Below are positions 2,295-63,944 of a stretch of DNA of 64,000 nt, piece by piece (positions within the stretch are counted from its first letter, which is position 1; every line of letters starts with the position of its first letter). The notes under the pieces are model-generated. The model was not told the DNA's origin and made no database searches. It saw nothing but the letters and a program-made list of their open reading frames with translations. Origin of the DNA: Gautieria morchelliformis (Eukaryota; Basidiomycota; Agaricomycetes; Gomphales; Gomphaceae); NCBI GenBank assembly GCA_015179125.1, contig WHVA01000098.1, positions 62,001 through 126,000 on the forward strand, given 5' to 3'. Position numbers and translations under genes: made by a program.

Positions 2295-2766
2295 TGTAAG
2301 GGCAACCCTAGCTGGCTGTGGAGATCACACTGCCACACAACTGACAAGGGGAAATCCAAAGTATGTATAAATGAACAGAGTATACAAGAGAGGGGATTCT
2401 CACCTGACAAGGGGAAATCCAAAGAGAAAAGTCGGAGGACCCCCAATGCCAGCGAGCCCGTATTATACTACGCTGCATAGCCAGGGACAACACTTGGCAC
2501 CTGCCATCTACCCTGCATCCTCCTGACCTCCCTGACCCTTGATCGACCCTTGATGCCACCTATTACGCAAGTTGCTTGATTTCCGACACTGTTCCGAGAG
2601 TGGAAGTCAGAAATTGGAGTGGAACTGGCAAAGCAAACAGAACTGGTGGAAGGTCTCCCAGAAGCGGAATCATTTCTGAAAGCGGAGGCGGAGATGGAAT
2701 CGGAACCGTAAGCGGAGTCGGAAATGGAGTCGGAAATGGAAATGGAAAACAGGGTGTCCCCTGACA
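2295..2766 (-). repeat. 3' LTR of gypsy A copy 1 (one leader unit)
   Basis: Begins TGTAAGGGCAACCC and ends GTCCCCTGACA on the plus strand. Read in sense (minus) it is TGTCAGG...CCCTTACA. It holds one 63-bp leader unit at 2341-2403. It lacks 18 bp in U3 that the partner LTR has. Confidence 0.93.
2341..2403 (-). promoter_or_regulatory. 63-nt GT...AG leader unit, A copy 1 3' LTR
   Basis: In sense the unit starts GTGAGAATCC and ends CCTTGTCAG. It is preceded by a second copy of TTTGGATTTCCCCTTGTCAG. It is intron-like in length and ends, and it is missing as one clean block from the partner LTR at 9266/9267. Confidence 0.6.
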
Positions 2767-5700
2767 TCACCCCCCCTCTAGTGTGCTTGTCCTTGAAGCA
2801 CGGGATATGAGGGATCAAAAGGCCAGTGAGCGGATTCAGCAAGGGGCACAAGGGTGTGTCCTATAGAACTCGCAGAGTTTTTTGGGAGCAGAAACATCTT
2901 GCTCTGGGACCATGAATTCTCCTCATACCCATACCCTTCGCATTTCACGAGGAATTGGAGTCATCCTCGCAAAAACCGGCTGTCCAGGATCCATTCCACC
3001 ACATAGTGCTCTTCCCCATCTACGATTTCCGGTGGAGGTGGCAGACGAGCCTTCTGGCCTGGAATTGGGTCCTCAAGTGCAGGGAGCAACTTCACTACAT
3101 TGAAGACGGGGTGGAGGCAGGACATGGAGTTCGGAAGTCGGAGGCAGTATGCATTCCGTCCAACCCTCCACATCACTGTGAAGGGCCCAAGGTAGCGGTG
3201 GGCAAGCTTCTGTGAAGGGCGTGTGGTGCAGATGTCACTTGCATCTAAATACACCTTGTCTCCAACCTGGTACTCTAGGGCAGGAACCCGGCGTTGGTTG
3301 TAGTACCTTGCCATGTCATCCTTGGCCTTCACAAGGGCAGACTTGGCTTCCAAAAGGGTGGAGTCCATGCGGTCTTGGAACTCATTGACTGTCTCGAGTT
3401 GGGACTCTGCCTGGCATGGCTCAAAGCCCATCTGCGGGTGTCGTCCGGAGTCGATCATGAAGGGAGTCTGCTGTGTGGCGGAATGTACATGGTTGTTGTA
3501 TTGGAATTCCACCAGTGGAAGTAGCTCATCCCAGTCATCCTGCCTCTCATTGACAAAGAGGCGGAGATATTGCTCCAGCTCCTGATTTACCCATTCCGTC
3601 TGTCCGTCCCCCTGCAGATGGTATGCTGTGGTGGCAGCTAGCTTTATTCCGAGCAGGCGGTAGAGCTCCCGTGTCGGTTCCGCAATGAACTGCGGACCTC
3701 GGTCGGAAATGACTTGCTTCAGGAGTCCATGCAATTTCCAGACATGCGCAAGGAACAGGCGGGCCGCTCCAAGGGCCATGATCGTCGTGTGTGTCGGAAT
3801 GAAGTGGGACATCTTGCTTACCGAGTCCTTGACATTCATGATTGCGTCATAGCCATGAGACTCCGGGAGTTCAACGATGAAGTCAACACTGATGGGGTCC
3901 CAGCATGATTCTCGAATTAGGAGTGGAACAAGTTCTCCGATGGGCAGATGTCTCTATGCTTTGGTCCAGAGACAAAGGTCACACGTCTTCACATACTGTC
4001 CAATGTAGCGGGACATCTGAGGCCACCAGTAGTTCCGAGCCACCAACTCCAGCGTCTTCCACCTGCCAGAATGCCCTGCGACCTGGGTGTCATGGTGTTG
4101 GGACACGACGCGGCAGTGGTGGTCTGCCCCATCTGGAACGTAGACCTTGCCCCTGAAGTGGAGCAACCAATCTCGTTCTGACCACTCTGCTGCTCACACT
4201 GACCATGAATGCCCTTTCCGCAGCTCCTCCACCGCCTTCACCACCGATTCCTCCTTCTCTCCATTCCGGTACTGCCTCCGGATGTCCCGGAGCATTTCCG
4301 CTTCCACCCCAACAGCAGTCACTCCTTTGAGGGTGCAGATTGCAAAGAGGCTTGGGTGGAGCAATGTCATGTCAGCATTGTCGCCGCTTCCGCTTCCATG
4401 ATCCGCACGGCGGGATGGGGCATTGGGCTTGCCCATGGTGCGGCCAGGGTGGTGGTGGAGCATGAAGTCAAACCGGGACAGGTGTAGGGACCACCATGCT
4501 TGTTGTCAGTTCAACTTCTTAGACGTGTGGAAGTACTCAAGGTTCTTGTGGTCTGTCCAGATCTCAAAAGGGCACAGAGCACCCTTGAGGAAGTGTCGCC
4601 ACTCCTCCAGCGCTCGGATGATTGCCAGCATTTCCTTGTCATGGATCTCATAGTTCCGCTCAACCGGACTAAGGCTTTTAGAGAAGAAGGCAATTGGATG
4701 CCACCTCCCACCATCTTCCGACGACTGCTGTGACAAGACTGCTCTGGTGGCTGCGTCGGAAGAATCCGCCTCGACTCGATAAGGGAGAGAGTCGTCGGGA
4801 AAGATCAGGACCGGGGCAGAAGTGATCGCCTCCTTGAGTTTGTCAAAGGAGGACTGCTCCGGCTCCCCCCACCGCCATCCAACATCCTTCTTGGTGAGGT
4901 CAAAGAGGGCACAGGCATGGCAGGAGAAGTCCTTGATGAACCGCAGGTAGAAATTGACAAACCCAATGAAGGACTGGACCTCCTTCTTGTTCCGCAGCAC
5001 AGGCCATTCCGACACACTGGAAACTTTGACTGGGTCCATTTCCACGTTTCCTTCCGACACGATCACCCCAAGATACTCTATCCGCGTCCGCTCAAATTCG
5101 CACTTTTCCGGCTTGAGACACAGGTTGTACTCTCGGAGCCGTTCCAGCACTCTCTGCACGACCTCCCGATGTTCCGACATTGTTTTCATAAAGATGAGGA
5201 TGTCATCGAGGTAGACGCAGACAACCCCTTCTTCTATCATGTCACGGACGATGTCATTCGTCATCATCTGGAATGTGGCAGGACTGTTGGTGAGGCCAAA
5301 GAACATGACCTGTGGCTCAAAGAGTCCTTGGTTGGTGCAGAATGCGGCCTTCCACTCGTCTCCCTCCCGGATCCGAACATTATTGAAGCCCCAGCGGACA
5401 TCCAGCATAGTGAAGTACCTTGCCCCGCAGAGTTGTGTGATCAGTTTGGAAATGAGTGGAATGGGGTACCGGCTCGTGATCATGATCACATTCAAGGCCC
5501 GGTAGTCCTGCACAAGCCTGAGTGAGCCGTCCTTTTTGATGAAGAACACCGGAGATGCCATGGGTGACTTGGAGGGGCGGATCCTCCCTGTATGGAGGTT
5601 TTCCGCAAGGAACGCATCGATCTCTACCTGCTCCCTGGGTGACAGCAGGTAGACCTTGCAGTTGGTGGGCTTTGACCCAGGCTCTAACTCAATGGCATGG

Positions 5701-6597
5701 TCCCACAGCTTCCATTGAGGCAGGGCATCAAACGACTCCTTGGCAAAGACATCCTCGAACTCCCGCAGGTACTCCGGAATCTCCATCTCCACTTTATCAT
5801 GCTTCCTGGAGGCTTCTGCGAGGTGTTGTGAAATATTTCCGGTGGCGTGGATGTGTTCCGCTTCTGGTGGAAGGTTCATGTACAGCAAGCGCTCCCCCTC
5901 CGCCAGAGTGTCTTCCAGGCCGAGTCGGACAATGTCGGAATCAGAATCAGAATCAGAATCGGAAGTGGGAGCTGGTTCGAATTCTGCTTCCGAATCCTCT
6001 TCAGCAAGCAGTGGATGGGGGCCAGAACGACATGTCTGTATGAGCCGTTCGGTCTTCCGCTGCTCCTGGCGCTCCTTCCGCACTTCCTACCGGCACATGT
6101 GACACTTGGCTGGGCATCGACTCATCAGCACCTTCTGAGGATCTCCGGGTCGAGTTGATCTCCGGGTTGTGCTCCTGCAGCCAGGTAAACCCGAGGATGA
6201 TGTCTTGCTTCCCCAGGCTGGTGACTGCAAAGGAAGTGCATTCCGTGTGTCCATCGTAGCGGAGAATTGTATCTACTATCTCCGTGATGACCCCGCCTCA
6301 TTGGGGATTCCATCCACATTGAACACGGGGATTGCACGTTGCAACTTCCGTGTGGTCAGTTGGTTCCGTTCCACATAGCCTCGGTCCATAAACTGACCAG
6401 TGGCCCTGCAATCGACAAGGGCAGGTCCAGATTTGACTTCTGCCGTGTCCGTCGTCCGGATTTCCACCTTAATGACCAGTGACTTGGGGCCAGGGGTGGA
6501 GGCAACAACATAGCGCTTCGGGAGGCGTCTCTCCCAAGGGCAGATGTGGGATAGACGGGGTGTCGGATTCGGTTTTTGTGTGACTTTATCTGGTTGG
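2767..6597 (-). pseudogene. Gypsy A copy 1 pol remnant
   Basis: Minus-strand pol in pieces. Protease and linker lie at 6276-6597. Reverse transcriptase and RNase H lie at 4506-6083, with the active-site box 'VYLDDILIF' and 'WTDHKNLEYF' intact. The zinc-binding (HHCC) region of integrase lies at about 3954-4166. The integrase core, GPY/F module and start of the chromodomain lie at 2961-3839. Frames are interrupted near 3000, 3840, 4190, 4505, 5530 and 6120 by indels and stops. The order PR-RT-RH-IN-chromodomain marks a chromovirus. Many Arg codons that are CGN or CGG in copies 2 and 3 read TGN/CAN here, which suggests CpG decay. Confidence 0.9.
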
Positions 6598-7095
6598 TGT
6601 AGTAGACAGGAATTATAGGCAGTAGGTATGGACTTGTTGCTCAAAAGAATAGACTAGAAATTAATTCACTCTCTCAGTGAATTTAGTTGTCACTATAAAT
6701 ATATTATACACTACCTAGAAATTAATTCACTACAGAGGATTTCTAGGTCAATAAATCGAAAGAACACTAGACTAATTTACTTGCCTCTCTCAGTGAATTT
6801 AGTTGTCACTGAGAGAGGGGGAAATCTGTCTCACTGTGCATGTACTACTACCCGGCTCTTTAGCGCCCAAGAGCCCGCGCGTCGAAGTCATTTCAGACTC
6901 CGCTGGGTGCAGCCGCTTTTGAAGATAGAAATAACAAAATAAAATGGAGAGGTAGGGAGTAACTGGAAAATTTCGAAAATAAACAGAGAAATGAATGCAT
7001 GGTACAAGAACAATGTTAGAAGAGATTGAAACACCATACAATAAATCGAATATATTATGCTTGATTTTGGTGCAGGAGCATAAATGCACCCAACA
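6598..7095 (-). mobile_element. T solo LTR inside gypsy A copy 1
   Basis: A 498-bp TG...CA unit (minus: TGTTGGGTGCATTT...CTACA) flanked by GTTGG (6593-6597) and GTGGG (7096-7100), a 5-bp duplication with one mismatch. A sister copy lies at 40176-40657 with perfect duplication ACTGC. It carries no coding frame, so it is read as a solo LTR. It interrupts the gag-pol junction region of copy 1. Confidence 0.85.
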
Positions 7096-9220: not shown

Positions 9221-9647
9221 TGTAAGGGCAACCCTAGCTGGCTGTGGAGATCACACTACCACACAACTGACAAGGGGAAATCCAAAGAGAAAAGTCTGAG
9301 GACCCCCAATGCCAGCGAGCCCGTATTATACTACACTCCACAGTCAGGGACAACACTTGGCACTTGCCATCAACCCTGCATCCCCCTGACCTCGCTGACC
9401 CTTGATCGACCCTTGATGCCACCTATTACCCGAGTCGCTTGATTTCCGACACTGTTCCGAGAGTGGAAGTCAGAAATTGGAGTGGAACTGGCAAAGCGAA
9501 CAGAACTGGTGGATGTTCTCCCAGAAGCGGAATCATTTCCGAAAGCGGAGTCGGAGATGGAATAGGAACCGGAAGCGGAGTCGGAAATGGAGTCGGAACT
9601 GGGTGTGGTGTTGGAACTGGAAATGGGAGACAGCATGTCCCCTGACA
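9221..9647 (-). repeat. 5' LTR of gypsy A copy 1 (no leader unit)
   Basis: 427 bp. It is aligned with the other A LTRs but lacks precisely the 63-bp GT...AG unit: in sense, ...CCTTGTCAG is followed directly by TTGTGTGG at 9267/9266. It ends at the target duplication GGAGT (9648-9652). Confidence 0.93.
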
Positions 9648-12759: not shown

Positions 12760-13245
12760 TGCCAGGGGACACCCTGTTTTCCAGCTCCGACACCACCCTG
12801 AGTTCCGCTTCCATTTCCGACTCTGCTTCTGGTTCCACTTCCATCTCCAACTCCGCTTTTGGAAATAGTTCCACTTCTGGGAAAGCTCCCACCAGTTCCG
12901 TTCGCTTTGCCAATTCCGCTCCATTCTCTGACTTCCACCTTCGGAACAGTGTTGGGAGTCAAGCAACTCGCGTAGTATGTGACGTCAAGGGTTGGTCAGG
13001 GGTCAGGGTCAGGGCAATGCAGGGTTGATGGCAAGTGCTGGGTGTTGTCCCTGGCTGCGGACTAGCACCGTATAATATGGGCTCGCTGGCATTGGGAGTC
13101 CTTAGACTTTTCTCTTCGGACTTCCCCTTGTCAGGTGAGAATCCCCTCTCTTGTGTATTCTGTTCATTTATATGTATACTTCGGATTTCCCCTTGTCAGT
13201 TGTGTGGTAGTGTGATCTCCACAGCTAACTAGGGTTGCCCTTACA
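12760..13245 (+). mobile_element. Gypsy A-type solo LTR
   Basis: 486 bp from TGCCAGGGGACACC to GCCCTTACA, flanked by CAAAC and CAACC (one mismatch). The counterpart at 47554-48039 is also 486 bp, with perfect GTTTG duplication. A leader unit GTGAGAATCC...CAG is at 13135-13199 (65 bp). Confidence 0.87.
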
Positions 13246-13252
13246 CAACCAC

Positions 13253-13669
13253 TGCAAGGGCAATCCTTGATAGTTGTGGAGATCACACTACCACATGAGC
13301 TGACAGAGGGGAAATCCAAAGTATATACATAAATAAGGAAATATACAATAAGAGGGAATCTCTCTCACCTGACAGAGGGGAAGTCCAAAGAGAAAAGCCC
13401 AAGGGTCTCCACCACCAGGAGGCCCACATTATACTACAATTGACCACAGTCAGGGCCATCACTCAGTACTCACCAGTGACCCTGCCTGAACCCTGGCATC
13501 TCCAACCCCTGACCGACCCTGTATGCCACATACTACATGAGCTTCTTCACTTCCATGTTCCAGGAATGGAAGGGTGAAAGTGGAGGAGTGAGTGCAACTG
13601 GCAGAAATGGAAACCGAGGGAGAGAAACTGGGGTGGTGTCAGAATTGGAAAATGGGGCATCCCCTGACA
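13253..13669 (-). repeat. C-type gypsy LTR
   Basis: Related to A but diverged: plus strand TGCAAGGGCAATCC...GCATCCCCTGACA, 417 bp. It is the 3' LTR of a minus-strand element whose chromodomain end follows at 13670. The leader unit is at 13300-13368 (69 bp, GTGAGAGAG...TCTGTCAG in sense). Confidence 0.83.
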
Positions 13670-13916: not shown

Positions 13917-14289
13917 TGTCAGGCGAACCCCCTTCCAAAGTTGTTTCTGAGCTCAGCCCCAGTCCAGGTCCGAGTATGTCCTGAGCCCCAGACCTGTCCC
14001 CATGTTCCTCTTGGTCCACTGAGATCCCTGACCCTCAGCCTTGGCTTCAATCCTGGAGTGGTGTTGGCATCATGTGCACGGTCCTATGCATTAGGTGATC
14101 ACCATGGAGGTCAGGCCTGGTGTCGCTTGCAAGGTGAGTGCTCCTGGAGAAGTGAAGAGGTGTGTGACGGTGCAGGTATATAGTCAGTGTGCTGGCAGTG
14201 AGAGTCCCTATGCTTCCTCTTTGGATCTCTCTCTGTCAGGTGAGCCTCGTGTCATATAGATAGTTGTTTATTCCTCTTTGGATCCCTCT
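13917..14289 (+). repeat. D-type LTR, 5' part
   Basis: Begins TGTCAGGCGAACCCCC inside the C chromodomain gene. It has 'tatatag' near 14169, then CTTCCTCTTTGGATC...CAG|GTGAGCC at 14239/14240. It is interrupted at 14290 by S (duplication CCTCT). The matching part of D with its far end is at 39322-39373 and 40887-41195. Confidence 0.75.
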
Positions 14290-14518
14290 TGTCAAGATTG
14301 GCTTTTAGGCATTAATATCGTGTATTAGTGAACACAGTGAGTGCCCGAATAGCTTGTGCAACGAAGTGTGCCGTTCGGCAAATAAGGTGAACCAATAAAT
14401 GTTCAGAAGGTCAGAGGGCTGCCCGAACGGAGCTCACCCTATCTACAGTCATAGCGAAGTAGCCCGTGATACTTGACGATGTAATGTGCAAGGTCTCACG
14501 GAAAGGTTGTCAAGCAGT
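14290..14518. repeat. S LTR fragment in D
   Basis: 5' 229 bp of S (TGTCAAGATTGG...), cut by the T fragment after GCAGT. Target base identity (CCTCT, reverse complement AGAGG) matches the S insertion at 39374-40886, showing common descent. Confidence 0.83.
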
Positions 14519-15086: not shown

Positions 15087-15377
15087 CTGTCAGGGGACAC
15101 CCTGTTTTCCATTTCCAGTTCCGACTCCATTTCCGAAGACGTTTCCGATTCCGATTCCATCTCCGCCTCCGCTCTCGGAAATGATTCCGCTTCTGGCAGA
15201 ACTTCCACCAGTTCTGTTCGCCTTCCCAGTTCCACTCCAATTTCCGAGTTCCACCCTCGGAACAGTGTCGGAAATCAAGCGACTCGCGTAATAGGTGACA
15301 TCAAGGGTCGATCAAGGGTCAGGGAGGTGCAGGGTTGATGGCGGGTGCCAAGTGTTGTCCCTGGCTGCGCAGCGTAG

Positions 15378-15384
15378 TATAATA
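15378..15384 (+). promoter_or_regulatory. TATA box of gypsy A LTR
   Basis: TATAATA 33 nt upstream of AGACTTTTCT (15411-15420), which is the complement of the PBS. The spacing predicts that the transcript begins at the self-primer. Confidence 0.7.
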
Positions 15385-15410
15385 CGGGCTCGCTGACATT
15401 GGGGGTCCTT

Positions 15411-15420
15411 AGACTTTTCT
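15411..15420 (+). promoter_or_regulatory. Predicted transcript start / self-primer, gypsy A
   Basis: AGACTTTTCT, 33 nt after the TATA start, is exactly complementary to AGAAAAGTCT at 15553-15562. In Tf1-like elements the first ~11 nt of the RNA fold back and prime minus-strand synthesis. Here the match is 10/10. Confidence 0.65.
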
Positions 15421-15441
15421 CTTTGGATTTCCCCTTGTCAG

Positions 15442-15504
15442 GTGAGAATCCCCTCTCTTGTATGCTCTGTTCATTTATACATACTTTGGATTTCCCCTTG
15501 TCAG
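15442..15504 (+). promoter_or_regulatory. 63-nt GT...AG leader unit, gypsy A copy 2
   Basis: Starts GTGAGAATCC and ends CCCCTTGTCAG. Both the base before it and its end lie in copies of TTTGGATTTCCCCTTGTCAG. It lies 31 nt after the predicted transcript start and before the PBS, so it is in the RNA leader. It is a candidate intron or slippage unit. Confidence 0.6.
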
Positions 15505-15552
15505 TTGTGTGGTAGTGTGATCTCCACAACTAGCCAGGGTTGCCCTTACAGC

Positions 15553-15562
15553 AGAAAAGTCT
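15553..15562 (+). promoter_or_regulatory. Self-priming PBS, gypsy A copy 2
   Basis: AGAAAAGTCT, two bases (GC) after the LTR end CA. No tRNA-type TGG follows the LTR. The two-base gap fits integrase end-trimming. Confidence 0.7.
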
Positions 15563-15737
15563 CTCCCATAGAGGACCGGCGGTCGTACTGCGTGTCGCAG
15601 CCGCCATAGGTGCGTTCGGAATCGGAGATAGCGACTCGGAGATCGCAACCTCTTCCGCACACACAGCGTACGACAGCCCTTCTTCTTACGTCGAGCTCCC
15701 AACCCCGGAAATCCCATCCCACATTTCTCCTTCCGAC

Positions 15738-16913
15738 ATGGATCCGGACGATCGTCTTCGGAATATGGAGGAGGAATTGACGCGGAACCGGATGAAGACC
15801 GACGCGATTGAAACAGCCTTACAAGCGATTTTGGCTAAGTTAGATATTCCACAAGGTGGTGGAAATGAAATGTTGGACGATCCGGATTTCGGAAAAGCGG
15901 AACTAGCGGAGGAGAGAAAGTCCGCGAAGTTAGCAAAGGTCAAACCCGCAACTCCGGCGGACTTTGACGGAGATCGGGAGAAGGGACGCGCATTCTTCAA
16001 CACATGCAGCATCTACTTCGCAATTGTCGGAGACCTCTTTCCGAACGACCAGGCTCGGATTCACTGGGCATTGTCCTTTTTCAAGTCGGACCGCGCATCC
16101 CGTTTTGCAAACAAGGTGATCCGACATGAAGCAAAGGGCAAGGGGAACTACTTCCGAGACTGGGACGCCTTCGAGAAAACATTTTCCGACCAGTTCTGCC
16201 CAAAAAATGAGCAGCTCACAGCCCTTACGAAGCTCGAGGGGACCAGCTGGTACCAGGCCAAGGATCCGGTCGATGACTATATCGATCGCTTCCAGGAGCT
16301 CATCGACCTTGCGGAGTATGATGACGACAAGATGATCGTCATCAAATTCCGACGAGGACTCGATCCGACACTCCAGAACCAAGTTGCGCTGCTTGGGGAT
16401 GGAGCTCCGGACTTTGATGACCCGGAAGGGTGGTACCAAGCTGCACAGAGGGTGTCCCGGAACAGGGAAGCAAATGAGGCCTTCGTGGAGACGAGCCGGA
16501 ATATGACGCGCAGTTCCACTCGTCCTACTCCACCTGTGCCAAAATCCGGAAGCGCATTCATTCCCATGCGGAAAGTATTTCCGACGCTTTCTCCGCCCGC
16601 TCCTATTAGGAACCATAGCCCTCCTCCCTCGAAGAGTGGCCCTGCCCCGATGGATGTTGACCGCATGCGCGGAGAAGGCCGCGGAACTATCACCTGCTTC
16701 CGATGTCAACAACCAGGCCACTATGCCCGCGAGTGCCCCCAAGCATTTGACATCCGACTTATGACCACAGAGGAGAAACTCGAGCTCCTTCCAGAGTTCC
16801 TCGCACTTGCGGACATAAGCAGAGTGCCTACTGCGGAAGGAGTTTCCGAAAATGCGGAACATGGCGCATCGGAAGCGGAAGATGCGTCGGATTTTGTGAC
16901 GCGCAGCGGGTGA
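15738..16913 (+). CDS. gag: Gypsy A copy 2 Gag
   Basis: 391 residues from ATG 15738 (MDPDDRLRNMEEELT), the same length as copy 3 Gag. It has an N-terminal charged helix, then a retrotransposon capsid domain at about residues 75-215 ('FNTCSIYFAIVGDLFPND', 'YIDRFQELIDLAEYDDD'). A Pro-rich linker follows, then a CCHC zinc knuckle 'CFRCQQPGHYARECP' near residue 322 that packages RNA. The frame is open upstream through the PBS into the LTR without an ATG, so ATG 15738 is the safest start. The TGA stop at 16911-16913 overlaps the pol frame (-1). No canonical X XXY YYZ heptamer is seen at the overlap, so how Pol is made is unclear. Confidence 0.92.
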   Translation: MDPDDRLRNMEEELTRNRMKTDAIETALQAILAKLDIPQGGGNEMLDDPDFGKAELAEERKSAKLAKVKPATPADFDGDREKGRAFFNTCSIYFAIVGDLFPNDQARIHWALSFFKSDRASRFANKVIRHEAKGKGNYFRDWDAFEKTFSDQFCPKNEQLTALTKLEGTSWYQAKDPVDDYIDRFQELIDLAEYDDDKMIVIKFRRGLDPTLQNQVALLGDGAPDFDDPEGWYQAAQRVSRNREANEAFVETSRNMTRSSTRPTPPVPKSGSAFIPMRKVFPTLSPPAPIRNHSPPPSKSGPAPMDVDRMRGEGRGTITCFRCQQPGHYARECPQAFDIRLMTTEEKLELLPEFLALADISRVPTAEGVSENAEHGASEAEDASDFVTRSG

Positions 16914-19900
16914 GATGTGTGCCCCTGCTGCCTGTACATAACCGGTTTGCCTGTCTTGAAGTAGAGAATGAAAAGCCCCGACTCCCCTCACTTCATACAG
17001 ACCCACCGGATAAAGTCACACAAAAGCCAAATCCGACACCCCGTCTATCCCGCATCCGCCCTTGGGAGAGACGCCTTCCGAAGCGCTATGTCGTTGCTGC
17101 CACCCCTGGCCCCAAGTCACTAGTCATTAAGGTAGAGATCCAGACGACAGATACGGCGGAAGTCAAATCCGGACCCGCCCTTGTCGATTGCGGGGCCACT
17201 GGTCAGTTTATGGACCGGGACTATGTGGAACGGAACCGACTGACCACGCGGAAGTTGCAACGTGCAATCCCGGTGTTCAATGTGGATGGAAGCCCCAATG
17301 AGGCAGGGTCCATCACGGAGATAGTGGACACAATTCTCCGCTACGATGGACACTCGGAACGCACTTCCTTCGCTGTCACCAGCCTGGGGAAGCAAGACAT
17401 CATCCTTGGGTTTACCTGGCTTCAAGAGCACAACCCGGAGATCAATTGGCAGACTCGGAAGGTACTGATGAGTCGATGTCCAGCCAAGTGTCACATGTGC
17501 CGGTCGGAAGCGCGGAAGGAGCACCAGGAGCAGCGGAAGACCGAACGGCTCATACAGACATGTCGTTCCGGCCCCCATCCACTGCTTGCAGAAGAAGACT
17601 CAGAAGCGGAATTTGACCCGGATCCCCCTTCCAAGTCCGATTCCGACGTCATCCGACTCGGCCTGGAAGACGCTCTGACGGAAGGGGAGCGCTTGCTGTA
17701 CGTAAACCTTCCGCTGGAGGCGGAACACATCCGCGCCACCGGAAATATTTCGCAACGCCTTGCTGAAGCCTCTAAGAGGTATGATAGAGTGGAGGCGGAA
17801 ATTCCGGAGTACCTGCGGGAGTTTGAGGACGTCTTCTCCAAGGAGTCGTTTGATGCCCTGCCTCCGCGGAAACTGTGGGACCATGCCATCGAGTTGGAGC
17901 CTGGGTCGAAGCCCACCAACTGCAAGGTCTACCCGCTGTCACCCAAGGAGCAGGTAGAGCTCGATGCATTCCTTGCGGAACATCTCCGTACAGGGAGGAT
18001 CCGCCCCTCCAAGTCACCCATGGCATCTCCGGTGTTCTTCATCAAGAAGAAGGACGGCTCGCTCAGACTTGTGCAGGATTACCGGGCCTTGAATGCGATC
18101 ACGATCAAGAACCGGTACCCCATTCCGCTCATTTCCGAATTGATCACACAACTCCGCGGGGCGAAGTACTTCACCAAGCTGGATGTCCGCTGGGGCTTCA
18201 ATAATGTCCGGATCCGGGAGGGAGATGAGTGGAAGGCCGCATTCCGCACCAACCGAGGACTCTTTGAGCCACAGGTCATGCATGTTCTTTGGCCTCACCA
18301 ACAGTCCTGCCACGTTCCAGAGAATGATGAATGACATTTTCTGTGACATGATAGCAGAAGGGGTTGTCTGCGTCTACCTCGATGACATCCTCATCTTCAC
18401 AAAAACAATGTCCGAACATCGGGAAGTCGTGCGGAGAGTGCTGGAACAACTCCGGGAGTACAACCTGTGTCTCAAGCCGGAAAAGTGCGAATTTGAGCGG
18501 ACGCGGATAGAGTACCTTGGGGTGATCGTGTCGGAAGGAAAGGTGGAAATGGACCCCGTCAAAGTTTCCGGTGTGTCGGATTGGCCGGTGCCGCGGAACA
18601 AGAAGGAAGTCCAGTCCTTCATTGGGTTTGTCAATTTCTACCGGCGGTTCATCAAGGACTTCTCCTGCCACGCCCGTGCCCTCTTCGACCTCACCAAGAA
18701 GGAGGTTGGATGGCGGTGGGGAGAGCCGGAACGGGCCTCCTTTGACAAACTCAAAGAGCTGATCACTTCCGCCCCGGTCTTGATCTTTCCCGACGACTCT
18801 CGCCCTTACCGAGTGGAGGCGGATTCTTCCGACGCAGCTACCGGAGCGGTCTTGTCGCAACAGTCATCGGAAGAAGGTGGGGGGTGGCATCCGATTGCCT
18901 TCTTCTCTAAGAGTCTCAGTCCGGTCGAGCGGAACTACGAGATCCATGACAAGGAGATGCTGGCAATCATCCGAGCGCTGGAGGAGTGGCGACACTTCCT
19001 TGAGGGTGCTCTATGCCCATTTGAGATCTGGACAGACCACAAGAACCTTGAGTATTTCCGCACGTCTAAGAAGTTGACCCGACGACAAGCACGGTGGTCC
19101 CTACACCTGTCCCGGTTTGACTTCATGCTCCACCACCGCCCCGGCCGCACCATGGGCAAGCCCGATGCCCTATCCCACCGTGCGGATCATGGAAGCGGAA
19201 GCGGAGACAATGCGGATATGACACTGCTCCGCCCAAGTCTCTTTGCAATCCGCGCCCTAGAAGGAGTGACTGCAGTTGGAGCGGAAGCGGAAATGCTCCG
19301 GGACATCCGGAGACAGTATCGGAATGGAGAGAAGGAGGAGTCGGTGGTGAAGGCAGTGGAGGAACTTCGGAAAGGGCACTCACGGTCTGTACGGGCAGCG
19401 GAATGGTCGGAACGGGATGGGCTGCTCCACTTCAGAGGCAAGGTCTACGTTCCAGATGGGGCGGACCTCCGCCGCCGCATCGTGTCCAGCACCATGACAC
19501 ACGGGTCGCTGGGCATGCTGGCAGGTGGAAGACGCTGGAGTTAGTGGCTCACAATTACTGGTGGCCTCAGATCTCCCGCTACATTGGACAGTACGTGAAG
19601 ACATGTGACCTTTGTCTCCGAACCAAAGCGCAACGACATCCACCCGTCGGAGAACTTGTTCCGCTCCCGATTCCCGAATCCCGCTGGGACACCATCAGCG
19701 TCGACTTCATTGTTGAACTCCCAGAGTCTCATGGCTACGACGCGATCATGAACGTCGTGGATTCGGTAAGCAAGGTGTCCCACTTCATTCCGACGCACAT
19801 GACGATCACAGCCCTGGGAGCGGCCCGCCTGTTCCTTGCCCATGTCTGGAAGTTGCATGGGCTCCCGAAGCAAGTGGTTTCCGACCGAGGTCCGCAGTTT

Positions 19901-21073
19901 GTCGCGGAACTGACTCGGGAGCTCTACCGCCTGCTCGGCATAAAGCTAGCTACCACCACGGCGTACCATCCGCAGGGTGACGGACAGACGGAACGGGTCA
20001 ATCAGGAGTTGGAGCAATATCTCCGCCTCTTTGTCAATGAGAGGCAGGACGACTGGGATGAATTACTTCCGCTGGCAGAATTCCAATACAACAACCATGT
20101 CCATTCCGCCACACAACAGACTCCCTTCATGCTCGACTCCGGACGACACCCGCGGATGGGCTTCGAACCACGCCAGACTGAGTCCCGACTCGAGACGGTC
20201 AATGAGTTCCGAGACCGCATGGACTCCACCCTTTCGGAAGCCAAGTCGGCCCTTGCAAAGGCCAAGGATGACATGGCGAGGTACTACAACCAACGCCGGG
20301 TTCCTGCCCCAGAGTACCAAGTTGGAGACAAGGTGTATCTAGATGCAAGTGACATCCGCACCACACGCCCTTCACAGAAGCTTGCCCACCGCTACCTTGG
20401 GCCCTTCACAGTGACGCGGAGGGTTGGACGGAATGCATACCGCCTGCGACTTCCGATGTCCATGTCCCGCCTCCACCCCGTCTTCAACGTGGTGAAGTTA
20501 CTCCCTATGCTTGAGGACCCAATTCCAGGTCGGAAGGCTCATCCCCCACCTCTGCCAGAGATTGTAGATGGGGAAGAGCACTATGTGGTGGAACGGATCC
20601 TGGACAGCCGGTTTGTGCGAGGACGACTCCAATTCCTCGTGAAATGGGAAGGGTATGGGTACGAAGAGAATTCGTGGGTCCCGGAGCAAGATGTTTCCGC
20701 CCCGGACAAGCTCGGGGAGTTCTATAGGACACATCCCGGTGCCCCTCGCCGGATCCGCTCGTTGGCATTTCAATCCCTCGTGTCCCGTGCTTCGAGGACG
20801 CAGCACGCTAGAGAGGGGGTGATGTCAGGGGACACCCTGTTTTCCATTTCCAGTTCCGACTCCATTTCCGAAGACGTTTCCGATTCCGATTCCATCTCCG
20901 CCTCCGCTCTCGGAAATGATTCCGCTTCTGGCAGAACTTCCACCAGTTCTGTTCGCCTTCCCAGTTCCACTCCAATTTCCGAGTTCCACCCTCGGAACAG
21001 TGTCGGAAATCAAGCGACTCGCGTAATAGGTGACATCAAGGGTCGATCAAGGGTCAGGGAGGTGCAGGGTTGA
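16910..21073 (+). pseudogene. pol: Gypsy A copy 2 pol, two frameshifts
   Basis: Encodes protease ('VDCGATGQF', Asp of the D-C/S-G active site), reverse transcriptase (YLDD near 18375), RNase H, integrase (HHCC, D-D-E core), GPY/F and chromodomain. The frame breaks twice. Near 18284 CATG is duplicated (TCATGCATGTTC against TCATGTTC in copy 3). Near 19489 one C is lost (GTGTCCAGC against GTGTCCCAGC). The pieces read 16910-18287, then the frame of 18183-19544, then that of 19403-21073. The last frame runs ~250 nt into the 3' LTR, adding a Ser-rich tail. Since the LTRs are identical the lesions are recent, or they were copied from a defective RNA or arise from assembly error. Confidence 0.9.
20811..20822 (+). 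promoter_or_regulatory. Polypurine tract of gypsy A copy 2
   Basis: GAGAGGGGGTGA directly before the 3' LTR (TGTCAGG). It is the expected primer site for plus-strand DNA. Copy 3 has the equivalent GAGGGGGGTGA next to 41739. Confidence 0.8.
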
Positions 21074-21285
21074 TGGCGGGTGCCAAGTGTTGTCCCTGGC
21101 TGCGCAGCGTAGTATAATACGGGCTCGCTGACATTGGGGGTCCTTAGACTTTTCTCTTTGGATTTCCCCTTGTCAGGTGAGAATCCCCTCTCTTGTATGC
21201 TCTGTTCATTTATACATACTTTGGATTTCCCCTTGTCAGTTGTGTGGTAGTGTGATCTCCACAACTAGCCAGGGTTGCCCTTACC
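20823..21285 (+). repeat. 3' LTR of gypsy A copy 2
   Basis: Identical by eye to 15087-15550 except that the outer end reads TTACC instead of TTACA. The leader unit is at 21177-21239. Duplication TTAAC follows at 21286-21290. Confidence 0.95.
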
Positions 21286-25460: not shown

Positions 25461-25470
25461 AGCTTGATCT
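25461..25470 (-). promoter_or_regulatory. Self-priming PBS, gypsy B
   Basis: Sense AGATCAAGCT begins two bases (GA) after the LTR end CACA. It is the exact complement of AGCTTGATCT at 25631-25640 in the LTR. Confidence 0.7.
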
Positions 25471-25550: not shown

Positions 25551-25609
25551 CTGTGTAGTGGGTATCCTCAGTTTATAACTCTACCAACGATAGATACATG
25601 GGGACTTGC
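25551..25609 (-). promoter_or_regulatory. 59-nt GC...AG leader unit, gypsy B
   Basis: In sense it begins GCAAGTCCCC and ends ACTACACAG. The 21-nt sequence before it is repeated at its end (plus copies at 25551-25571 and 25610-25630). CAG|GCAAGT is the usual context of GC-AG introns, and ACTGA 20-24 nt before the end could be a branch point. Confidence 0.6.
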
Positions 25610-25630
25610 CTGTGTAGTGGGTATCCTCAG

Positions 25631-25640
25631 AGATCAAGCT
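25631..25640 (-). promoter_or_regulatory. Predicted transcript start / self-primer, gypsy B
   Basis: Sense AGCTTGATCT starts 34 nt after the first T of TATAAG (25674). It is the exact complement of the PBS at 25461-25470, giving the same layout as family A. Confidence 0.65.
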
Positions 25641-36033: not shown

Positions 36034-36522
36034 TGTAAGGGCAACCCTAGCTGGCTGTGGAGATCACACTACCACACAACTGACAAGGGGAAATCCGAAG
36101 TATACATAAATGAACAGAGTATACAAGAGAGGGGATTCTCACCTGACAAGGGGAAATCCAAAGAGAAAAGTCTAAGGACCCCCAATGTCAGCGAGCCCGT
36201 ATTATACTATGCTGCATAGCCAGGGACAACACTTGGCACCCGCCATCAACCCTGCTTCCCCCTGACCTCCCTGACCTTGATCGACCCTTGATGCCACCTA
36301 TTACGTGAGTCGCTTGACTTCCGACACTGTTCCGAGAGCAGAAGTCGGAAATTGGAGTGGAATTGGCAAAGCGAACAGAAGTGGTGGAAGTTCTGCCAGA
36401 AGCGGAATCCTTTCCGAAAGCAGAAGCGGAGATGGAATTGGAACCAGAAGCGGAGTTGGAAATGGAGTCGGAACTGGGTGTGGTGTTGGAACTGGAAATG
36501 GAATACAGGGTGTCCCCTGACC
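36034..36522 (-). mobile_element. Gypsy A solo LTR
   Basis: 489 bp, plus TGTAAGGGCAACCC...GTCCCCTGACC, with duplication TCCAC at 36029-36033 and 36523-36527. The outer base is C instead of A. One leader unit is present. Confidence 0.88.
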
Positions 36523-39373: not shown

Positions 39374-40886
39374 TGTCATGACCCATTTATTTCCCTTACC
39401 GAGCTATCCCTACTTTCCCTTTCACCACTGCTCCTGTATGTTCGCTTGAGTTCACCCTTCCCTTCCACCACTCCTCTATGTTCACTCCATTCGCTCTTCG
39501 CTGCATTCGCCAAATGGCCATTCGCTACTCACATCATTTGCCAGTAGGCACACCATCAAACACGATCGACATCCTTTACCCGGCTTGATGGTTCATCACT
39601 GGCCCCATCATCTTCCCGACTCAACCCCCTTTGGGTGTTCCTATGGCCAGAATACATTCATGGGATGTCCTAGCCATAGATCGTGTGGGATCAACCCAGC
39701 AGACCAAGAGTCCGTGCAGGGTAACATGTATGCAGGTCTCAAGGCATGTTTTCTTACATGGGTACCTTTATCCCCTTCCCCTCTGTTGTTTCATGTTAAC
39801 ACTCCTCCCTTCCTCTATTGCATATACGTTTCATCTATTTGTATCTTGACTGTGCACCCCTATCCAACCCTGCCTCATAATGGCCTCTTTCCTATTCACT
39901 GATATCATATGAGCATTCAGTATAAGTAGTTTACATTCACATGTATATTCCTCAGTTCAATTATCATACGTCTATCTTGTGCAAAACTTGACCTCACTGT
40001 GACCATCATCTTGAGCCCTCTTCTATAGACTACCATCTTCGACCAGAGGAGGACTTAAGCACCACTGGTGAGTTTTCATACTTCACCTTCACTACCTTAG
40101 CCTTTGTACTATTATCAGTGCTGTCAGCGAAGGGCTCCGAAGGAGCACCTTCACCGGCGAAAGGATTGTTACTGCTGTAGAGGACAGGAATTATAGGCAG
40201 TAGGGCTGGACTTGGTGTTCAAAAGAATAGACTAGAAATCAATTCACTCTCTCAGTGAATTTAGTTGTCACTGAATATATTATAAACTACCTAGAAATCA
40301 ATTCACTACAGGATTTCTTGGTCAACAAATCGAAGGAAAATAAGACTAATTTACTTGCCCCTCTCAGTGAATTTAGTTGTCACTGAGAGAGGGGGGAAAT
40401 GTGTCTTACTGTGCATATACTACCACCCGGCCATTTAGCGCCCATGGCAGCTGTCAAGATGGTTATGTAAGGGTGCTGGTGGTGACAAGAAGAAAAACAA
40501 ATCGAAATAGACGTACGTATCTTTAATAGAAAATTTCGGAAAGATTCTGAAAATAAAGTGATCATAGAAGAACAATCTGAAAAGAAATTGGAAAGAAATA
40601 CGAATGGTGGAATGTATTTGGCTTGATTTTGGTGCAGGAGCATAAATGCACCCAACAACTGCTTGACAACCTTTCCGTGAGACCTTGCACATTACATCGT
40701 CAAGTATCACGGGCTACTTCACTATGACTGTAGATAGGGTGAGCTCCATTCGGGCAGCCCTCTGACCTTCTGAACATTTATTGGTTCACCTTATTTGCCG
40801 AACGGCACACTTCGTTGCACAAGCTATTCGGGCACTCGCTGTGTTCACTAATACACGATATTAATGCCTAAAAGCCAATCTTGACA
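39374..40886. mobile_element. S solo LTR (reverse) carrying T
   Basis: TGTCATGACCC...CAATCTTGACA with duplication AGAGG at 39369-39373 and 40887-40891. Without the T insertion it is ~1026 bp, like the S at 11356. It is inserted exactly in the leader-unit acceptor of a D LTR. Confidence 0.9.
40176..40657. mobile_element. T solo LTR inside S
   Basis: 482 bp, TGTAGAGGACAGG...CACCCAACA, with perfect duplication ACTGC at 40171-40175 and 40658-40662. It occupies the same site in S as the T fragment at 14519, so the two loci share this event by descent. Confidence 0.92.
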
Positions 40887-41195: not shown

Positions 41196-41739
41196 TGTTA
41201 GGGCAACCCTGGCTGGTTGTGGAGATCACACTACCACAGAACTGACAAGGGGAAATCCAAAGTATGTATAAATGAACGGAGTATACAAGAGAGGGGATTC
41301 TCACCTGACAAGGGGAAATCCAAAGTATGTATAAATGAACGGAGTATACAAGAGAGGGGATTCTCACCTGACAAGGGGAAATCCAAAGAGAAAAGTCTAA
41401 GGACCCCCAATGTCAGCGAGCCCGTATTATACTACGCTGCGCAGCCAGGGACAACACTTGGCACCCGCCATCAACCCTGCACCTCCCTGACCCTTGATCA
41501 ACCCTTGATGCCACCTATTACGCGAGTCGCTTGATTTCCGACACTGTTCCGAGAGTGGAAGTCGGAAATTGGGGTGGAACTGGCAAGGCGAGCAGAACTG
41601 GTGGAAGTTCTCCCAGAAGCGGAATCATTTCCGAAAGCGGAGGTGGAGATGGAATCGGAACCGGAAGCAGAGTCGGAAATGGAGTCGGAACTGGGTGTGG
41701 TGTCGGAACTGGAAATGGAAAACAGGGTGTCCCCTGACA
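41196..41739 (-). repeat. 3' LTR of gypsy A copy 3, two leader units
   Basis: 544 bp, exactly 63 bp longer than the partner. Leader units lie at 41242-41304 and 41305-41367 in tandem. Pol reads ~240 nt into it. Confidence 0.95.
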
Positions 41740-53898: not shown

Positions 53899-54215
53899 TG
53901 TCAGGGCACAGCCTGTTGGTCTCTTTTATTTCCTTTATGCCTTGTCTTCTTTCCTTTCTTCCTCTGCCTCCTTCCATTTTTCCCCTCCTACTCCTAGGTC
54001 CATATGACATACTCCCCCACTTGTGTCCATGACCGGTAGTTTGGTCTGCTCAGCAGCTATATAGTTAGTTGCTGAGGTAATGGGATCCTCACCTTGTTCT
54101 CTTTGGATCCCTTTACCTCAGGTATGTTGCCGCTGTAGTTACAGACCTAGTACTCATATATGCTCTTTGGGTCCCTTTACCTCAGTCCTGTGTGGGCATG
54201 TAAGGTTGCCCTTAC
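53899..54215 (+). mobile_element. F-type solo LTR
   Basis: 317 bp, TGTCAGGGCACAGCC...GTTGCCCTTACA. It sits between the B-like GPY/F tail and chromodomain, so it is an insertion. Flanks CCCCT and CCTGT match only partly. TATATAG is near 54059, and the leader unit GTATGT...CTCAG is at 54122-54185 (64 nt). Confidence 0.8.
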
Positions 54216-63552: not shown

Positions 63553-63944
63553 TGTCAGGGGAACACCAATCGCACACTGCATGATCGCAGCGTGTTGTTG
63601 GTGGCCCCTGAGCTTCTCCTAGCCTTTAGCATCCTTCTGTCTTGTGTTCCATTTATTTCCCTTCCTGTTCTGGCCCCTTCCGACATCATTCCTTCCTTAT
63701 CTGTCCAGCCCTGTTATCACTGGCGTGATTGCTTATGTAACTCGGGCATTCGGTGATCAGGCTAGCATGCCCAAGTTTGCTTATAGTCGTAGTTAGGTGG
63801 CAAAGGGGTTCCTTAGAGTTTTCTCTTTGGATCCCCCTTCACCAGGTATGTCTATGTCCTGTATGTAGCTCTCTATCTTACTTTGGATCCCCCTTCGCCA
63901 GTTCGCCGCTTGAGTGTAGAGCGTCTGCCTAGGTTGCCCTTATA
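63553..63944 (+). mobile_element. E-type solo LTR in copia
   Basis: 392 bp, TGTCAGGGGAACACC...GGTTGCCCTTATA, with duplication GAGGC at 63548-63552 and 63945-63949. Leader unit GTATGT...CGCCAG at 63846-63901 (56 nt), with CTTAC ~25 nt before its end. Confidence 0.9.

Follow-up and report, generated by a model that had tools for sequence, protein, structure and literature searches.

A candidate intron between repeated words in the LTR leaders of self-priming gypsy elements of Gautieria morchelliformis

Loss of the intron when spliced RNA is reverse transcribed is the classic proof of retrotransposition, and in the 1985 assay with an intron-marked Ty element the intron of the reverse-transcribed RNA was lost from the new copies (PMC12786077, in excerpt). 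The window analysed here, a 64,000-nt stretch of G. morchelliformis DNA, holds several types of LTR whose leaders carry a unit of 56-69 nt that begins with GT or GC, ends in AG and is flanked by two copies of a word of about 21 nt. What is this unit and, if it is an intron, how does it stay in the LTR?

The unit, its framing word and the carrier elements

Re-reading confirmed every unit position that a first-pass annotation had given for the A, B, C, E and F types (Table 1). Its D unit does start with GTGAGC where it was placed; the end is AAG rather than the supposed CAG, and no LTR end follows. The word, described as about 20 nt long and ending in CAG, measures 21-22 nt and ends so in A, A', B, C, E, F and F'. 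Its two copies are identical in A, in B and in the copies of E and F' on a second contig of the same genome (C2), and they differ at one position in F, C, A' and the window's E copy. In A, A', B, C, E, F and F', word 1 is followed by a donor-like hexamer and word 2 by unrelated sequence.

Table 1. Positions in the window of units, words and element parts
Feature	Position	Strand	Details
A 5' LTR	15088..15550	+	3' LTR 20823-21285; 100% identical over 462 nt
A self-primer AGACTTTTCT	15411..15420	+	reverse complement of PBS
A word 1	15421..15441	+	21 nt, spans primer end to donor
A unit	15442..15504	+	GTGAGA...CAG, 63 nt, intron-like
A word 2	15484..15504	+	acceptor end; identical to word 1
A PBS AGAAAAGTCT	15553..15562	+	two bases past LTR
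A gag frame	15738..16910	+	391 codons; gag and zinc knuckle
A' (CTTCGG subfamily) unit	13135..13199	+	GTGAGA...CAG, 65 nt
Tandem two-unit A LTR	41242..41367	-	word 1 at 41388-41368
Zero-unit A LTR, single word	9267..9287	-	primer 9297-9288, exon 2 directly after; PBS 9218-9209
Unit of partner 3' LTR to zero-unit LTR 9297	2341..2403	-	ACTCC flanks both sides
B self-primer AGCTTGATCT	25631..25640	-	reverse complement of PBS
B word 1	25610..25630	-	21 nt
B unit	25551..25609	-	GCAAGT...CAG, 59 nt; word 2 is the last 21 nt (25571-25551)
B PBS AGATCAAGCT	25461..25470	-	10 nt, complementary to B self-primer
C unit	13300..13368	-	GTGAGA...CAG, 69 nt; word 1 at 13390-13369
D unit, degenerate	14240..14296	+	GTGAGC...AAG, 57 nt; word 2 ends CAAG
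E unit	63846..63901	+	GTATGT...CAG, 56 nt; word 1 at 63825-63845
F unit	54122..54185	+	GTATGT...CAG, 64 nt; word 1 at 54101-54121, repeat 2 nt longer leftward

The arrangement is common in the genome. We searched 122 Mb in 1113 contigs, C2 and a third contig, C182, among them, and found 2320 matches to the word followed by CAGGTNNG against 0 for the reversed control pattern, which is more than chance would give. We also ran a script that sought repeats spaced 42-109 nt ahead of an LTR-end motif and required neither GT nor AG. From the window it retrieved A, A', B, E and F, and from 200 kb of C2 A, A', E and F'. Its other output was one unrelated repeat (39476) and a handful of decayed copies. 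Between 12757 and 13500 of the window the tails of an A' LTR (+) and of a C LTR (-) face each other near 13245, and complementary U5 stretches lie between them. Inverted words CTCTCTCAGTGA...TCACTGAGAGAG occur at 6669-6817 and 40247-40391 of the window and at C2 52149-55261, where they sit in 271-nt direct repeats 2.8 kb apart.

Element A spans 15088-21285 and holds, in several frames, protease, reverse transcriptase (RT), RNase H, integrase, SH3_Tf2-1 and Chromo domains; the pieces of B that were tested gave gag, RT and RNase H only. A protein search with A gag found 46 relatives, and the polymerase pieces of A and B had no relative among the viral contigs searched. The ten long open frames scanned on C2 hold retroelement pieces together with GRAM, methyltransferase and DUF726 host domains.

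Self-primer and PBS are complementary over 10 nt in A and B in the window and in E on C2. The E pair, AGAGTTTTCT/AGAAAACTCT, differs from that of A by a compensatory change, and the primer has one mismatch in the 5' LTR of that copy and none in the 3' LTR. The layout proposed in the annotation, in which a start is followed by word and CAG, donor, word and CAG, and PBS, holds in A, B and E (the E PBS being on C2); no PBS of the F family was found with two pattern searches, and D is degenerate. By its sequence the layout of A, B and E is of the self-priming Tf1/sushi type, with putative primer release by RNase H. In the Tf1/sushi chromovirus elements of S. pombe the PBS adjoins the LTR and is complementary to the start of the RNA (PMC10085805, in excerpt). 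Here too the PBS is complementary to the predicted start of the leader, and A has a chromodomain and a Tf2-1-like SH3 domain; unlike the elements as that excerpt of PMC10085805 describes them, those studied here have a GT/GC...AG unit and a word repeat between primer and PBS.

Transcription is predicted to start at the self-primer, from the PBS match and from a TATA-like word that lies, by eye, 33-34 nt upstream in A and B. Minimum-energy folds of one-unit and zero-unit A leaders pair the primer with the PBS (z -0.92 and -0.03); their stability is not unusual, and of the three-duplex 'Pretzel' structure the primer-PBS duplex alone was examined. Directly upstream of the predicted E start, on C2 near 190120 (-), stands TGGCGAAGGGG, reverse-complementary to a section of the E word, with a one-base variant at 63772-63800 of the window.

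The word fits closely into this layout. In A, B and E it starts with the first base past the primer and ends with the last base ahead of the donor. The repeat reaches 2-3 nt further left, into the predicted primer, in F and F', and by eye about 4 nt into it in D. The annotation had named unit edges that vary freely relative to GT and AG as a sign against its reading, and among the families seen they do not vary so. An element at C2 116318-121450 (L044-L046), with 437-nt LTRs that are 99.8% identical and a 1429-codon open frame, served as a single negative control and had neither a self-primer nor a word repeat (best 12/18).

Splice-like signals and conservation

All nine units scored (A, A', B, C, D, two of E, F and F') fit the consensus CAG/GTRAGT at 8 of 9 positions; the script held the exon CAG fixed, and each copy does show CAG. 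The donors are of five kinds, GTGAGA, GTGAGC, GTATGT, GTGTGT and GCAAGT, and the GC donor of B is otherwise perfect. By simple base odds, a fit of at least 5 of the 6 intron-side positions would arise by chance in about 0.8% of cases. The acceptor is AAG in D and CAG in all other scored units.

Fungal introns are mostly short, with weak pyrimidine tracts and strong branch points (PMC3033335, in excerpt). The unit lengths of 56-69 nt agree with short fungal introns. Branch-point-like YTNAY words occur in eight of the nine units and in B not at all, and the stricter CTRAY is found in F' only. These signals, weak in A and absent in B, may speak against the intron reading.

Upstream ATGs provide a further clue. 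With the unit removed, the leader has no ATG in 264 nt of A, 169 nt of B and 192 nt of E (one copy per family), where shuffles lead one to expect 4.81 (joint P 0.0035), and each unit of these copies contains one ATG. Six one-unit A copies with 63-nt units and a PBS gave a more mixed picture: the unit ATG is present in two of the six, and exonic ATGs number 0 in five and 2 in one intact copy (C2 112783). There are also two exonic ATGs in the zero-unit copy at 9297 and three in the A' copy at C2 191088. The pattern lends the intron real but moderate support.

When A, B, E and F are compared with one another, alignment succeeds for the words (z 4.6-6.6) and fails for the interiors of the units (z 0.0-1.9). 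Words from different families among these four disagree at 5-9 of 21 sites, the two words of one element at 0-1. TATA or poly(A) words were considered as candidates for the interior and dropped, as TAYRTA enrichment was not significant in any of five families.

Within families the two words tend to change together. In A', read at 13114 and at C2 145843, the fourth position of each word has changed from T to C. Among the first words read, 56 copies have CTTCGGATTT as word 1, and in the copy at 36163 word 1 reads T where word 2 reads C. A test meant to set splicing against word-to-word deletion by a difference between the words (word 1 CTTCGGACTT, word 2 CTTCGGATTT) came out empty, the difference being private: the exact pattern gave two one-unit copies, both in the window, and no zero-unit copy.

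Among 33 A copies with 63-nt spacing, from 38 found, variable sites number 14 of 36 in the interior, 4 of 21 in word 2 and 2 of 10 in the primer; the figures of 2 of 21 for word 1 and 1 of 6 for the donor are biased, since many of the copies were fetched by a word-plus-donor pattern and the script required the word. For exon 2 the count is 44 of 46, which indels in a small number of copies seem to have inflated, and we conclude nothing from this comparison of sites.

Taken as a claim about structure, the annotation's intron-like module in the LTR leader is well supported by sequence features: donors that fit the consensus at 8 of 9 positions, word edges that are exact in A, B and E, and upstream ATGs that lie mostly within the unit. 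Against it stand the weakness of the branch-point-like words in A and their absence from B, and splicing itself we infer.

A proposed cycle and the number of units

The reading that we favour, at a probability of about 0.45, takes the unit for a short spliceosomal intron that sits in the R/U5 leader of a self-primed LTR element and is restored by way of the two words. The RNA would begin at the self-primer, and splicing would join word 1 to exon 2 in the leader. The first 10 nt of the RNA, which are complementary to the PBS, would pair with it and then, by analogy with Tf1, be cut off as primer, so that the remaining template would be the word and U5. With the primer removed, minus strong-stop cDNA should end exactly in the word. 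In the unspliced 3' LTR the cDNA of spliced RNA would then land on word 2, and its extension would copy the intron, word 1 and U3. The new LTR would have one unit, its word 2 rewritten from word 1. The cDNA of unspliced RNA would land best on word 1, again giving one unit, and wrong landings would yield zero or two units; both forms exist.

The lengths of the matches fit this cycle. In the A LTR, cDNA of spliced RNA would match 67 nt from word 2 against 21 nt from word 1, and cDNA of unspliced RNA 130 nt from word 1 against 21 nt from word 2, where 67 and 130 nt are upper limits that depend on the poly(A) site. Given the longer match at word 2, strand transfer would restore the intron. The annotation had expected reverse transcription of spliced RNA to shorten the LTR; zero-unit LTRs do exist (278 matches in A), and deletion explains them equally well, but the outcome that restores the unit is the better matched. 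A rule of best landing would explain why the word has both of its edges where it does, why its copies evolve in concert, why a single unit dominates and why the two other, rarer forms occur. The stronger statement, that an LTR intron is removed from the genomic RNA and rebuilt in every cycle and that both words are thereby forced to co-evolve, is in our view slightly more doubtful.

It seems rather unlikely that the unit is a leader intron in elements that, like retroviruses, reverse-transcribe only their unspliced RNA, with splicing making the gag mRNA and the words an old duplication kept alike through strand-transfer slips that gain or lose a unit. Donor conservation and the ATG pattern are independent of regeneration, and the two-unit LTRs that such slips require as intermediates exist: A words within tandem units gave 14 matches at 11 loci, and at three of these two inner words 63 nt apart indicate at least three units. 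But two-unit forms are rare, the 11 loci standing against 2261 matches to primer, word and GTGAG with one mismatch allowed, and the word edges at donor and primer end in A, B and E are left unexplained.

Somewhat less likely again is an origin without splicing, in which misplaced first-strand transfer made and maintains the unit as a tandem repeat in R and its GT/GC...CAG edges are inherited or due to chance. Zero- and multi-unit LTRs do behave like changes in repeat copy number, and the weak branch points suit this reading. In A, the pattern for no unit (primer, word and TTGTG) gave 278 matches, with 0 for the reversed controls of both patterns. In B, among 100 matches listed of 746, 87 have the GC donor (85 GCAAGT, 2 GCAATC) and 13 are unit-less; for E, where 26 of 337 matches were readable, 21 have GTATGT and five have no unit. 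Zero-unit copies leave splicing unproven, since word-to-word deletion yields an identical sequence.

Mixed LTR pairs are a further point for a tandem repeat, as they suggest deletion within single LTRs. One A insertion, at 9647-2295 (-) of the window with ACTCC flanks, lacks the unit in its 5' LTR and has one in its 3' LTR, the two being 93.8% identical; a second, at C2 129644-134607 with ACAAC flanks, is mixed with LTRs 95.1% identical, and a pair of E matches on C182, at a spacing of 5540, may be mixed too. Some unit losses thus look like single-LTR events. In both of these A insertions the LTRs differ elsewhere too, in the window pair for example in U3. Among the matches listed, B pairs at 5.9-6.4 kb number 15 with the unit, one without and none mixed, and those at 5.9-7.6 kb 17, two and one. 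Independence would make about 23% of pairs mixed, and 0 of 16 then has odds near 0.017 (the script took 14% and 17 pairs, giving 0.009), so in B the unit state tends to follow the element. What a tandem repeat does not explain is that the interiors of A, B, E and F cannot be aligned and yet their varied donors, a near-perfect GC donor included, keep 8 of 9 positions. Zero-unit matches also outnumber extra-unit loci (278 to 11), though a deletion bias could cause this.

Two other readings are very improbable. The interior could have a control function, as a TATA or poly(A) signal that recurs close to the start, with the word as initiator, and interiors of 61-72% A+T with a TAYRTA word in four of five tested would suit it, but a start at word 2 would be without the self-primer. 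The unit could equally be a dispensable relic, zero-unit elements transposing too and the one-unit form being merely older founder stock. For this speak element-spaced pairs with both LTRs zero-unit, of which the matches listed include three in A (spacings 5648, 5674 and 5686, where 16 one-unit pairs lie at 5668-5781 and 15 of the 16 at 5726-5781) and one in B (5.9-6.4 kb); against it, every count made shows the one-unit form in the majority, and the unit is present in all of the 40 best A copies, whose identity is 99-100% and whose match covers it entirely.

Relation to known systems and meaning

Introns inside LTRs have a precedent in Penelope-like elements, where an LTR intron is retained in genomic copies. 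Those elements have their own RT class and priming rather than gag-pol with integrase, and we know of no word repeat at their primer and splice edges. The units described here share with them the position of an intron-like unit inside the LTR of genomic copies and differ in RT class and priming. An LTR intron of the Penelope type was set aside as an assignment, as A and B have gag and Ty3/gypsy-type RT/RNase H, and A also integrase.

In BLV, HTLV-1 and foamy virus a splice donor lies in R, just 3' of the RNA start, with the acceptor outside the LTR, tRNA priming and unspliced RNA as the genome. The donor here similarly follows shortly after the predicted RNA start; the acceptor is inside the LTR, and priming is by the element itself. 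Like Ogre, EVADE and Cer1, these are LTR elements for which RNA splicing is suggested, here from sequence; the introns of those three yield subgenomic RNAs, whereas the present unit lies within the LTR leader and would have to outlast reverse transcription (PMC12786077, in excerpt). The contrast with the 1985 intron-marked Ty element, in the same excerpt of PMC12786077, is that the repeat here would restore the intron. The open-licence literature searched gave no description of a leader intron in a self-primed LTR element; one candidate, an 'intron-containing LTR', turned out to be the bacterial ltrB gene.

A use for such an intron can be suggested from work on other basidiomycetes. The mRNA build-up of some basidiomycete genes needs introns; in Cryptococcus intron removal lowered mRNA for most genes tested, and in Schizophyllum an added intron helped (PMC3744415, in excerpt). 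Article titles suggest similar intron effects in Armillaria and Ganoderma. It is plausible that the leader intron may serve expression in the same way, and if the proposed cycle is true, the benefit to the element would be intron-dependent expression without loss of the intron in each cycle. A leader that survives its own splicing would then explain how a retroelement can retain an intron, and splice site, primer length and LTR evolution would come under one rule.
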